In this document: positions 12,298 to 24,811 of the stretch, one piece after another
Layout of the letters: every line of letters begins with the position of its first letter
How positions within the stretch are numbered: the first letter of the stretch is position 1
Assembly (NCBI RefSeq): GCF_000226295.1
Contig: NC_016025.1
Location: forward strand, 682,001 to 746,000
DNA length: 64,000 nucleotides
Direction of reading: 5' to 3'
Source: Chloracidobacterium thermophilum B
Lineage (GTDB): Bacteria > Acidobacteriota > Blastocatellia > Chloracidobacteriales > Chloracidobacteriaceae
Notes under the pieces: model-generated
What the model was told of the DNA's origin: nothing
The model's database searches: none
Seen by the model: the letters and a program-made list of their open reading frames with translations, nothing else
Made by a program: the position numbers and the translations under genes

Positions 12298-12470
12298 GGG
12301 GCAGGTTCCCAAACCTGCCCCTGCGCTAAACCTGCGGCAAACCGGCCCTGTTCCTGAACCTGCCCCACCGTGGTGCTCCATCATAAGGGCGACTTATGTA
12401 TGTGGATGCATAGAGGCAGGTTATGTGGGAGCAGTCGTGTAGGGGCAGGTTTTGAACCTGTCCCTACACG
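12298..12470. repeat. REP-like palindromic repeat cluster between convergent genes
   Basis: The unit GGGGCAGGTT and its reverse complement occur six times, with slight variation, in this spacer. Two pairs form hairpins: 12298-12321 (10-bp stem, 4-base loop) and 12436-12470 (16-bp stem with one G.T-type mismatch, 3-base loop). Single half-units lie near 12357-12366 and 12413-12422. The second hairpin is about 40 bp past the bchU stop and could end either transcript, but no T-run follows on either strand. Confidence 0.75.
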
Positions 12471-12512
12471 GGTTAGGGCCATGGGTTGAGGCGGTTTGTG
12501 TATCGGCGCACA

Positions 12513-13583
12513 TCACCCCTTGCGCGCCTGATAGAGCACATGACCGTGGCGCGCGACCTTCCGGGCGTCCACAAAGCCAAGCTGCCCGAACACATCGAAG
12601 TATTCATCCTGCCGCTTGAAGGTCATCATCGCTGGATCAACCCCCACGCTGGTCAGAAAGTGCGCCAGATAGTCGTAGTTGGCCAAGCCACGTTCGTCGC
12701 GCAGCAGCATGTCAGCCACGATGACGCGCCCACCCGACGGCAGCGCCGCCTGCGCTTTCCCCAGCAGCATGGCGCACACCTGGGCGTTGAAGGGATAGAG
12801 AATGCGGGCAAACAGTACGGCGTCGCAGGCCGGGTACGGATCGCGGTACATATCCAGGGCCACCGGCACAATGCGGTCAGACAATCCGTGCGCGGCCACG
12901 TTGTCCCGCACAATTTCCAGCGCCGACGGCAGGTTGACCAGCGTGATGCGTTCGATAGACGGAAACCGCTTGGCCAGAGCAATCGCAATGTCGCCATTGC
13001 CGCCGCCGACATCGAGCAGATGCGTGACGCCTTCGAGATCGGCTTCCTCCACGAGCAGGTTGCGGACGAAATGGTTGTTGCTGCGGTGGATTTCCTCGTA
13101 AAACGCGCTGTCTTCGCGGGTTCTGGGCGGCCAGGGCGTCAGCGCCGTGAAGTCCATCTCGCCCCGGATGACCTTGGCCAGATGCAGGTGATACCGCTCC
13201 ATAATCGTGACGGCGTAGCGCACAAAAGGCTCCATGGTCAGGTTTTCGTTGGCCGGATTGGGCGGCAGGAAAAACTGGCGGGCAAAGGGCGTCAGCGCCA
13301 GCCGGCCTTCGGCATCCCTAGTGAGCAACTCCATTTCCACAAGCATGTCCGTAAACTTGACCAACCGGTTGAGACGGCTTCCGGTGGCGGTTGCCAGCGC
13401 CTCGACCGACTGGGGCTGCTCAGCCAGATGACCAAACAGACCAAGCTCATAGGCGGCCTTGAGGACGAACATATCCACCGTGCCACGGTAAGTCATATCG
13501 CACGCACGCAAATACTGCTCATAGAGCGCATCATCACGCACATCGGCCGGGTGTTCGGCGGCCGCTGGAACCGGACTTGACAT
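12513..13583 (-). CDS. bchU: bacteriochlorophyllide C-20 methyltransferase BchU
   Basis: A 356-residue SAM-dependent O-methyltransferase-fold protein. An N-terminal helical dimerisation domain (about 18-110) precedes a Rossmann domain with the SAM-binding motif LLDVGGGNGDIA (about 189-200). Several segments closely match green sulfur bacterial BchU as I recall it: WPPRTREDSAFYEEIHRSN (151-169), VLFARILYPFNAQ (256-268) and YDYLAHFL (303-310). Tyr263 and His308 correspond to the residues proposed to act near the C-20 carbon of the chlorin. Known reaction: methylation at C-20 of bacteriochlorophyllide d, giving bacteriochlorophyll c for chlorosomes. An AAGGAG lies 7 bases before the ATG at 13583. 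It diverges from a 35-codon membrane-peptide gene. Confidence 0.9.
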   Translation of the reverse strand: MSSPVPAAAEHPADVRDDALYEQYLRACDMTYRGTVDMFVLKAAYELGLFGHLAEQPQSVEALATATGSRLNRLVKFTDMLVEMELLTRDAEGRLALTPFARQFFLPPNPANENLTMEPFVRYAVTIMERYHLHLAKVIRGEMDFTALTPWPPRTREDSAFYEEIHRSNNHFVRNLLVEEADLEGVTHLLDVGGGNGDIAIALAKRFPSIERITLVNLPSALEIVRDNVAAHGLSDRIVPVALDMYRDPYPACDAVLFARILYPFNAQVCAMLLGKAQAALPSGGRVIVADMLLRDERGLANYDYLAHFLTSVGVDPAMMTFKRQDEYFDVFGQLGFVDARKVARHGHVLYQARKG

Positions 13584-13641
13584 AGGGAACTCCTTTGCCG
13601 GGCGACAGCCTGCCAGCCCGAAGATGATGGTGAGTGAAATC

Positions 13642-13706
13642 CTTATCCAACGTACAAAAACCGACGCTGATGCGCTATGTTGGTTTTGTAAGCTGGAACG
13701 TATAAG
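13642..13706. promoter_or_regulatory. symmetrical divergent regulatory region of bchU and the small membrane-peptide gene
   Basis: Within the 165-bp gap between the two divergent starts there is an imperfect inverted repeat. The left arm at 13642-13665 reads CTTATCCAACGTACAAAAAC plus CGAC. The right arm at 13679-13706 is its reverse complement apart from a five-base insertion and a few changes. Each arm ends outwards in a -10-like element, TATAAG on the plus strand (13701-13706) and GATAAG on the minus strand. I see no good -35 hexamer, which suggests activator-dependent or shared control. Co-regulation of the two genes is an inference. Confidence 0.5.
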
Positions 13707-13748
13707 CGTGTTCCCCGCTCGAAACGTATCCAGAGGAGGGTCACTGCC

Positions 13749-13856
13749 ATGACGGCCATTCTGCTTGCCTGCCTGTTCGTCCTGGGTGGTTATGCCGCGT
13801 TGTGGGGCATCATCAAGTTTGTCGTTGCCAACACCAAGGACATTGCTGCCAACTAG
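13749..13856 (+). CDS. 35-residue single-span membrane peptide, divergent from bchU
   Basis: A complete short gene: ATG at 13749, TAG at 13854-13856. A near-ideal GAGGAGGG ribosome binding site lies about 9 bases upstream, and a strong intrinsic terminator starts 92 bases after the stop. The product is almost entirely one hydrophobic helix (about residues 3-28, containing LLACLFVLGGYAALWGIIKF) followed by a short polar C-terminus, NTKDIAAN. I do not recognise the family. The size, single span and position beside bchU fit a low-mass subunit of a photosynthetic or respiratory membrane complex. Such tiny subunits have been reported in homodimeric type-I reaction centres of chloracidobacteria, but identity with any of them is not established here. 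It is easily missed by automated annotation because of its length. Confidence 0.75.
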   Translation: MTAILLACLFVLGGYAALWGIIKFVVANTKDIAAN

Positions 13857-13948
13857 GCGACCAACCAACGGAAAATAAACGGCCAATAACGACACGGGAA
13901 AACCCGGTTCCCGCCGCTGGAAGGCAGCGCGTTGCCGGGGATACTTTT

Positions 13949-14003
13949 CGCACCCGCCCTGGGAGGTTGGCCTCCCAAGGCGGGTGCGTTTGTCTTTTGT
14001 TTC
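13949..14003 (+). terminator. strong intrinsic terminator of the small membrane-peptide gene
   Basis: An 18-bp stem with one mismatch (left arm 13949-13966, right arm 13971-13988) closes on a TTGG loop. It is followed on the plus strand by TTTGTCTTTTGTTT. The opposite strand has no T-run, so it serves rightward transcription, which fits the 35-codon gene upstream as a one-gene transcript. Confidence 0.85.
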
Positions 14004-14436
14004 AGGATTTCAAGGCAGCACGTAGCACGCCATGTTTTGCCCGGATTACGGAAAGTACTGGTAGTGGCCCCATCACCCGCCAGGCAAACAGCACATCTTC
14101 CAGACTTGCGCAGACATGCGCTGGTGCCAATGTTGTGAACGATGAGCGTGTCACCCGCAACCTCATCCACAGCCAGCCCAAACCACCGGCGACAGCGGAC
14201 GTTCCAAAGTCGCTGGCGTGCCCGCCTGCCCCCCTACGGGTTGCCAGACTTCGGGACAGCAGGCAACAGCCCACAGCACCAGAATGACCGGAAGGGCAAC
14301 CGGCCTGGCTTGTGCCCCTCACACCGGAACGTCCTGCCTCCCAGCAGCCTGCGCTGACCAGCACTTTCGGCAGGAAACCGGTGCTGATGCCACCTGAGTG
14401 GGCATCCCATACGCACTGGGACAACTGTGGTGTGGT
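14004..14436. other. 433-bp region with no supportable gene
   Basis: This lies between the terminator and the end of the MoeZ-like gene. Frames on both strands are open for up to about 140 codons, but their products are of unusual composition and match no family I know. No repeat or promoter stands out. It is the downstream region of the leftward sulfur operon. Confidence 0.45.
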
Positions 14437-22909: not shown

Positions 22910-24811
22910 TCATTGAACAATCGCACAGCTTGGGACAGGGCCCAGGTAGCCTAGCACCTTCGGCTGGTTTTTGTACGCTGGTGAAGCCAGGTTTTGCTGT
23001 ACTTTGGGCTGATTGCACAGCAAAAACTTTCCACCACTGGACGCTATCGTATGCAAAGCCGTCGCTCCAACCAACGTTTCAATGCGGGGCAGGTGAACAT
23101 CCTCGACGAGCAGGTACACCCGCTCCGCCCCGCGCCACAGAGCAACAAAGCCTTCATCGTCGAGAAACACCTGCGGCGCGCCGGGAGCATAGGAGCCGTA
23201 TTCAAGATTCGTCACCCGTCCGTTGAGCAGCCAGGCGTGGCGCAGGTCGGCGTAAAAGAAAACCGATGAGAAGGCATAGTATTGATTGTCCACCACCACC
23301 TGCCCCGGCTGATGCTGCCGGGCCGCAATGAGCGCCTGGGCCAGCGGATAAGACCCCAGGTAGGGGTCAAAGGTGACCATGGCAAGGCGGGCGGCCACGA
23401 GAAGCAGAGTCAGCATGACCGTCACCGGCAACCAGACCCAACCGGCCCGGACCAGGGCCACGCCCACAGCTCCGGTGAGAAAGGCCGCCGTCGCCAGCGC
23501 CAGCGGCGGCCGCAGGTAGGCAAATGACTGAAGCGTAAGGTCGCCCAGGTGGCCGAGCGACAGGGTGTACACGGCATAGACATCCGTGCTTTTGGCCAGC
23601 GCCTGGGCAATGTCGCCAGGGGTCGGCGTCTGCCAGTTGAGGACGATGAGCGCGCCGGCCGCCAGCGCCGCCAGCGCCGCCAGACTACCGGTCAGCCAGC
23701 GCGCAACCGACTGGAAGCGTCCGTCATGAGTCAGCACCACGCCAAGCAGCACGGCTACCGCCGGGTAAATCGGCAGTGAGTAGTATTCCTGCGTGGTCGA
23801 AAACGAAAAAAACAGCATGACGAAGCCGATCCAGAGGACGGCCAGCAGGGTCATGCGGCTGGCGCGGTCGTCCGGTCGGCGCGTCAACCGCAGCCGCGCC
23901 ACGCCGGGCAGAAACAGGCTCCAGGGAAAGAACCAGATAAGGTGTGAACACCAAAACCACAGGCGCGGCACAGTGTTGTAATCCCGTGGGTAGCGGCGGC
24001 CCAGAAAGCGCAGCACATGCTCGTTGAAGACGAAAAACCAGAAAAACCCACGGTACTTGCCCGGCTCACTGGTCAGGGCCACGTCAAACCAAGGCGGGTT
24101 GGCCACCGTGGCCGCAATGAACCAGGGCGACGTCAGTCCCAGAACGAGAAGTCCCAATGTCACCGGCGGAAGGCGCTGCCAGAAGTCCCGCTGCCGCCAC
24201 TGTCCGGTACAGACCGCGTATAGCCCCATGGCTGCCAGTGGAAACACCAGCCCAATGAAGCCCTTGAACAGAAACCCGGCCGCCAGACACACGGCCAGCA
24301 GCACAGCCCAGCGCCGGGGATGGCGTTCAGCGGGGTCGAGCGCCCGCAAAAAGGACCACATGGCCAGGGCCAGGCTCAGGGTCAGGAGCACGTCGGCAAT
24401 GAGAATGCGGGTGAAGAGAAACAGCCCGATGCTCGTGGCCAGTACGAGGCCGGCGTGGAAACCGGCGCGCGCGCCAAACGCCCAGACGCCCATGCGGAAG
24501 GTGAGCCAGCACAGCGCTACCGCGCCCAGCCCAATGGGAAGCCGGGCAGCCCAGTCCGACACGCCAAATATCCAGAACGAAAGCGCGATGAGCCAGTACT
24601 TGAGAGGCGGCTTTTCCAGGTAAGCAATGCCGTTGAGCCGGGGCGTCACCCAGTCACCGGTTGCCAGCATCGTGCGGGCAATCTGCGCCTGGGCTGCATC
24701 CACGTCATCCATCAGATGTGGTGGAGCGAAACAGGCACTCAGAAACACGATGGACGCCACAGCCAGCACCACCAGCTCGTCGCGCCACACCGGACGTTCA
24801 CTTGGCAGCAC
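22910..24811 (-). CDS. ArnT/PMT-family glycosyltransferase (polytopic membrane)
   Basis: A 633-residue GT-C type membrane glycosyltransferase. An N-terminal span is followed by the acidic loop [19 protein letters not shown], the metal and donor site of the ArnT/dolichyl-phosphate-mannose family. About 10-11 further membrane helices follow, with [19 protein letters not shown] early and a soluble C-terminal domain from about 480. It would transfer a sugar from a polyprenyl-phosphate carrier to a lipid or protein at the outer face of the inner membrane. The start is a GTG at 24811, inside the end of hpnI (14-bp overlap), so the two genes are co-translated and probably work on a shared lipid. Confidence 0.88.

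Follow-up and report, generated by a model that had tools for sequence, protein, structure and literature searches.

A 35-codon gene divergent from bchU in Chloracidobacterium thermophilum matches a small subunit of the type-I reaction centre and faces its neighbour across a conserved palindrome

The DNA analysed here, a 64,000-nt window of the Chloracidobacterium thermophilum B genome (NC_016025.1, positions 682,001 to 746,000), carries at 13749-13856 on the plus strand a frame of 35 codons followed by TAG, which encodes the peptide MTAILLACLFVLGGYAALWGIIKFVVANTKDIAAN and to which we refer as pscU. A Shine-Dalgarno sequence, GAGGAGGG (13733-13740, +), lies 8 nt upstream of the ATG, and the best 19-residue stretch of the product has a Kyte-Doolittle mean of 2.32, as expected for one transmembrane helix. 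An intrinsic terminator hairpin followed by TTTGTCTTTTG (13949-13988, +) begins 92 nt past the stop codon and folds with -38.6 kcal/mol, corresponding to a z-score of -6.3 relative to shuffled sequences. A simple consensus terminator scan did not pick up this hairpin, probably because its stem has an internal mismatch; the same scan gave one site on the minus strand (13914-13894), where shuffled sequences yield 1.4. A possible 5'-leader hairpin lies at 13704-13720 (+). The gene would form a transcript of its own, which has a short leader and ends at this terminator.

On the minus strand and divergent to pscU lies bchU (12513-13583), encoding bacteriochlorophyllide d C-20 methyltransferase. With 350.6 bits (E 6e-105) its product exceeds the curated TIGR02716 cut-off of 276.1, and it matches the solved relative 1X19 with an E-value of 3.5e-79. 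The gap between the two genes contains an imperfect palindrome of 39 bp (13652-13690), GTACAAAAAC...TGGTTTTGTA, which is a probable shared control element. A preliminary description of this DNA, made from its letters, had proposed the 35-codon frame with its ribosome binding site, the single hydrophobic helix, the strong intrinsic terminator and the divergent BchU homologue, and our analysis confirms all of them.

Short hydrophobic frames preceded by a ribosome binding site were scanned for in 216,008 bases comprising stretches around pscA, csmA and two CobN/Mg-chelatase-family genes together with the window, using frames of 28-60 amino acids, a Shine-Dalgarno-like site of at least 4 bases and a hydrophobic mean above 1.3. 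Among the 21 frames that passed, pscU is the most hydrophobic (the runner-up reaches 1.81), and none of the others has a site of 6 bases. With a stricter cut (>1.6) applied to the window and the loci L054 and L057, pscU was the sole frame passing. Genes for the subunits PscV and PscW were sought in the same 216 kb as frames of this type, and the other 20 frames were unconvincing by eye.

The preliminary description had predicted a low-mass subunit of a photosynthetic membrane complex and had proposed a comparison with chloracidobacterial reaction-centre structures. This comparison bears the prediction out, as all 35 of 35 residues are identical to chain E of PDB entries 7VZG and 7VZR (E 5.3e-19), which are cryo-EM structures of the type-I reaction centre of C. 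thermophilum in two forms (PMC9751088). The protein is from the same species and shows no difference at all. According to the structural report, three new single-transmembrane subunits named PscU, PscV and PscW were found by matching side chains to the map, each is present in two copies, and PscU lies in regions II/III beside PscA helices 4-8, bound to the PscA core (PMC9751088). Locus tags are given there for PscB, PscX, PscY and PscZ, and in the accessible part of that report none is seen for PscU, PscV or PscW (PMC9751088). Judged from its sequence, the product of 13749-13856 is almost certainly one of the low-mass subunits of the type-I reaction centre that consist of a single helix, and it is already known from the 2022 structure.

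Which of the three subunits it represents was judged by length. The PDB labels chain E 'PscE', and we provisionally assign it to PscU of the published naming because the chain has 35 residues and Table 1 of a review lists 35 for PscU, 36 for PscV and 45 for PscW (PMC10968294). Since the published letter is assigned from length only and the PDB label is a different one, chain E might really be PscV or PscW, with all else unchanged; the lengths of 36 and 45 residues against a deposited chain of 35 make this very improbable (PMC10968294). That the frame is open by chance, or encodes a small membrane peptide of an unrelated kind, for instance a small subunit of cytochrome oxidase, could be argued from the lack of any family match at E up to 10 in Pfam or up to 0.001 in NCBIfam, yet this is refuted by the 35/35 identity with a modelled reaction-centre chain and is further opposed by the co-occurrence with PscA and the purifying selection described below, so that we give it practically no credence.

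The label 'PscE' also belongs to a protein known from green sulfur bacteria (Chlorobaculum tepidum, Q8KDI3). Like the chain carrying that PDB label here, this protein is small, sits in the membrane and is an accessory subunit of a type-I reaction centre. The green sulfur PscE has 59 modelled residues in a helix-turn-helix, is present in one copy and is associated with PscC and the second FMO trimer (PMC9529944). PscU, by contrast, has 35 residues and another fold, a distinction drawn from these descriptions and from a PDB search in which green sulfur PscE is absent from the three matches to PscU (E up to 10). That both bear one name seems to be a clash of labels and no sign of homology. Small subunits of photosystems I and II and heliobacterial PshX are likewise single short helices at the edge of a reaction-centre core, and none of them is among the three PDB matches to PscU at E up to 10. 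In their placement, PscU, PscV and PscW have been described as nearer to the small proteins of photosystem II than to those of other type-I centres (PMC9751088). Following the published structure, PscU would contribute one transmembrane helix, in two copies placed at the rim of the homodimer, close to PscA helices 4-8. There it most likely serves as a structural rim subunit that packs against PscA and helps to keep the edge of the complex, including lipids and pigments, in place. It would also most likely provide a surface that other membrane proteins can contact, in line with the interface role suggested for the three subunits (PMC9751088).

We then compared pscU across genomes. Strong matches to PscU (E <1e-11) are present in 8 of 58 genomes, the own genome included, and cover 35/35 residues at 71-100% identity. 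Weak matches (E 0.008-3.3) occur in 12 others of the 58, ten of them inside open frames of at least 176 amino acids. The genomes in which the reaction-centre core family PF00223 exceeds its cut-off are the same 8 of 58 that have strong PscU matches, even though the family covers no more than positions 540-654 of the 711 in PscA (E about 2e-7). Seven of the PscU-bearing genomes belong to the genus, and the eighth, G008, represents another genus of the family and has the PscU with 71% identity. To reach more distant relatives, a profile of the eight PscU sequences was searched against 396 genomes of the phylum. This gave three strong matches, every one in the genus; weak matches at five places in four further genomes (E 0.002-0.01) were rejected, all of them lying inside open frames of at least 412 amino acids. 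In the named genome collection four loci were matched, and a megablast of 12400-14400 against the plasmid collection matched nothing.

The frame itself is maintained, with a stop after residue 35 in all eight genomes. Within the genus dN is 0.013-0.053 and dS 0.12-2.2 (G001 gives no usable dS), and against G008 the values are 0.21 and 1.05. Counts of differing codons, silent to amino-acid, are 3:1, 13:2, 16:2, 12:2, 18:2 and 18:3 within the genus and 12:10 for G008. Such ratios, taken from aligned codons, show purifying selection on the predicted frame. Conservation in related genomes, on which the preliminary description had let its reading stand or fall, is found in all eight PscA-bearing genomes of the 58.

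The expression signals around pscU are kept to different degrees. A purine-rich site containing GGAGG precedes the ATG in all eight genomes. A hairpin with a T-rich tail follows the gene in seven of the eight by our script rule, and the eighth, G008, has a strong hairpin that falls outside this rule. The terminator sequence is alike in the own genome and G004 and differs in the others. In the leader, the pattern GAGYG-N7-CRCTC is found in 7/8 genomes, with one pair changed on both sides (GAGCG/CGCTC to GAGTG/CACTC); at 13704-13720 the sequence reads AAGCG, with four of five pairs. The pattern is absent at pscU of G008. In the seven genomes that have it, part of the loop, GTTCCC, is constant. 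The leader hairpin may serve as an mRNA stabiliser or as a protein site.

The pairing with bchU is equally stable. The preliminary description had suggested looking for the gene beside bchU in related genomes, and we find the two genes head to head in 8/8 genomes from two genera, with BchU identities of 73-100%. Within 4 kb of pscU a ThiF/MoeB-type gene is present in 3/8 regions and a P-type ATPase in 4/8, the comparison being complete on the pscU side in all eight regions; on the bchU side the contig ends early in G001, G003 and G008. The accessible part of the structural report contains no mention of the bchU-pscU pairing or of the conserved gap (PMC9751088). While the PscU protein is already known, the pairing with bchU and the 39-bp palindrome are added detail.

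In the palindrome, the arms GTACAAAAAC(CGAC) and (GT)TGGTTTTGTA present one half-site to each gene. Across the eight genomes 24 of its 39 columns are invariant compared with 16 of 137 in the remaining gap, and in G008 27-30 of the 39 positions match the other genomes compared with 28-33% in the remaining gap; the limits of the element were set by eye after the alignment had been seen, which flatters this contrast. The preliminary description had seen here an inverted repeat with a promoter-like arm towards each gene. The repeat is borne out and the promoter likeness is weaker, with 0 sites in a sigma-70 scan of the bchU-pscU gap and a TATAAG that follows the right arm in this genome and is absent from the relatives at that place.

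Searches for further copies of the element point to a local role. The whole genome contains no second copy of the full palindrome with up to 3 mismatches, and with up to 4 mismatches the full element occurs only at its own place in the 216 kb around pscA, csmA and the window. For the right half, the genome contains one exact occurrence and three others at 2-3 mismatches, compared with five for the reversed control. The left half is somewhat above its control, with two exact occurrences and eight at 2 mismatches, i.e. 10 compared with 3 for the reversed sequence; by eye, no photosynthesis gene was recognised in the contexts of the eight two-mismatch sites. At the photosynthesis genes the half-sites are not enriched: GTACAAAAAC with up to 1 mismatch is found 0 times in the 19-kb pscA stretch (0.7 expected) and with up to 2 mismatches once in 3 kb at csmA (1.4 expected), and GGTTTTTGTA with up to 2 mismatches 10 times in the pscA-fmo stretch (9.9 expected). 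Because there is no second full copy and the half-sites are unenriched at pscA-fmo and csmA, the palindrome looks like a private control element of bchU and pscU and not like the mark of a photosynthesis regulon, as far as sequence searches can tell.

The window contains 8 sites that match GTACAAAAAC with up to 1 mismatch, where 1.7 are expected, and a count of 8 was reached in 0 of 100 shuffles. Three of these eight sites are the same variant, GTAGAAAAAC. The sole other exact copy of the left half-site in the genome, GGTTTTTGTACGYTGG, is located at window positions 22966-22981. It falls within the 3' end of a frame of 633 aa and precedes another frame, of 1228 aa, by about 125 bases.

The claim that pscU is co-regulated with bacteriochlorophyll c synthesis came out as plausible only: the pair and the palindrome are kept in 8/8 genomes, and no regulon was found. 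Shared control of the two genes is plausible because the conserved palindrome lies between them, and we rate control of pscU and bchU through this element as roughly an even chance. The palindrome would then probably be the control region common to pscU and the divergent bchU, whose product would carry out the C-20 methylation that leads to bacteriochlorophyll c. Somewhat short of an even chance, and to be taken seriously, is the explanation that bchU and pscU are mere neighbours with two independent promoters, the palindrome being a feature of promoter overlap without a shared regulator. The lack of another genomic copy of the palindrome with up to 3 mismatches and the half-site counts in the pscA-fmo stretch (10 against 9.9 and 0 against 0.7) agree with mere neighbourhood; however, the pair survives in 8/8 genomes of two genera while genes further out change, and the conservation of the palindrome is far above that of the remaining gap. 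As to shared control, it is possible, if rather doubtful, that a dedicated regulator acting on the palindrome sets pscU and bchU together, with the pair as its main or only target, and that this arrangement has been kept since before the genera split. If this is true, such a regulator would couple the make-up of the reaction centre to the type of antenna pigment.

The genome of G008 provides a wider view of the photosynthesis genes. It contains, on contigs C315 and C758 (L025, L055), a pscA fragment that is 87% identical over 487 residues, followed by a pscB-like gene (86% over 122), an fmoA-like gene (93%) and two more genes at 71% and 60%, which we take from their position to be pscX- and pscY-like. 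The order of these genes is the same as in the C. thermophilum genome, and bchU and pscU are also present. It seems that phototrophy is not confined to the genus Chloracidobacterium.

The gene adjoining pscU in G008 (L008:1684-3021, -) is a replication initiator (PF10134, E 1.4e-12). An 80% identical relative of this initiator is encoded on the 1.0-Mb second contig of the own genome (G000:C2:993188-994546). In all three genomes that consist of two contigs (G000, G004 and G005) pscU is located on the second. The bchU-pscU pair seems to be carried by a second replicon whose replication is of the plasmid type.

The present analysis indicates that a reading of raw sequence can single out a true reaction-centre subunit from a frame of 35 codons. 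The published chain is now tied to a genome position, and PscU goes together with PscA also in a second genus outside Chloracidobacterium. To our knowledge, little is known about regulation in phototrophic Acidobacteriota, and the conserved DNA element between bchU and pscU is a candidate for the control of an antenna pigment gene and a reaction-centre subunit gene in these bacteria.
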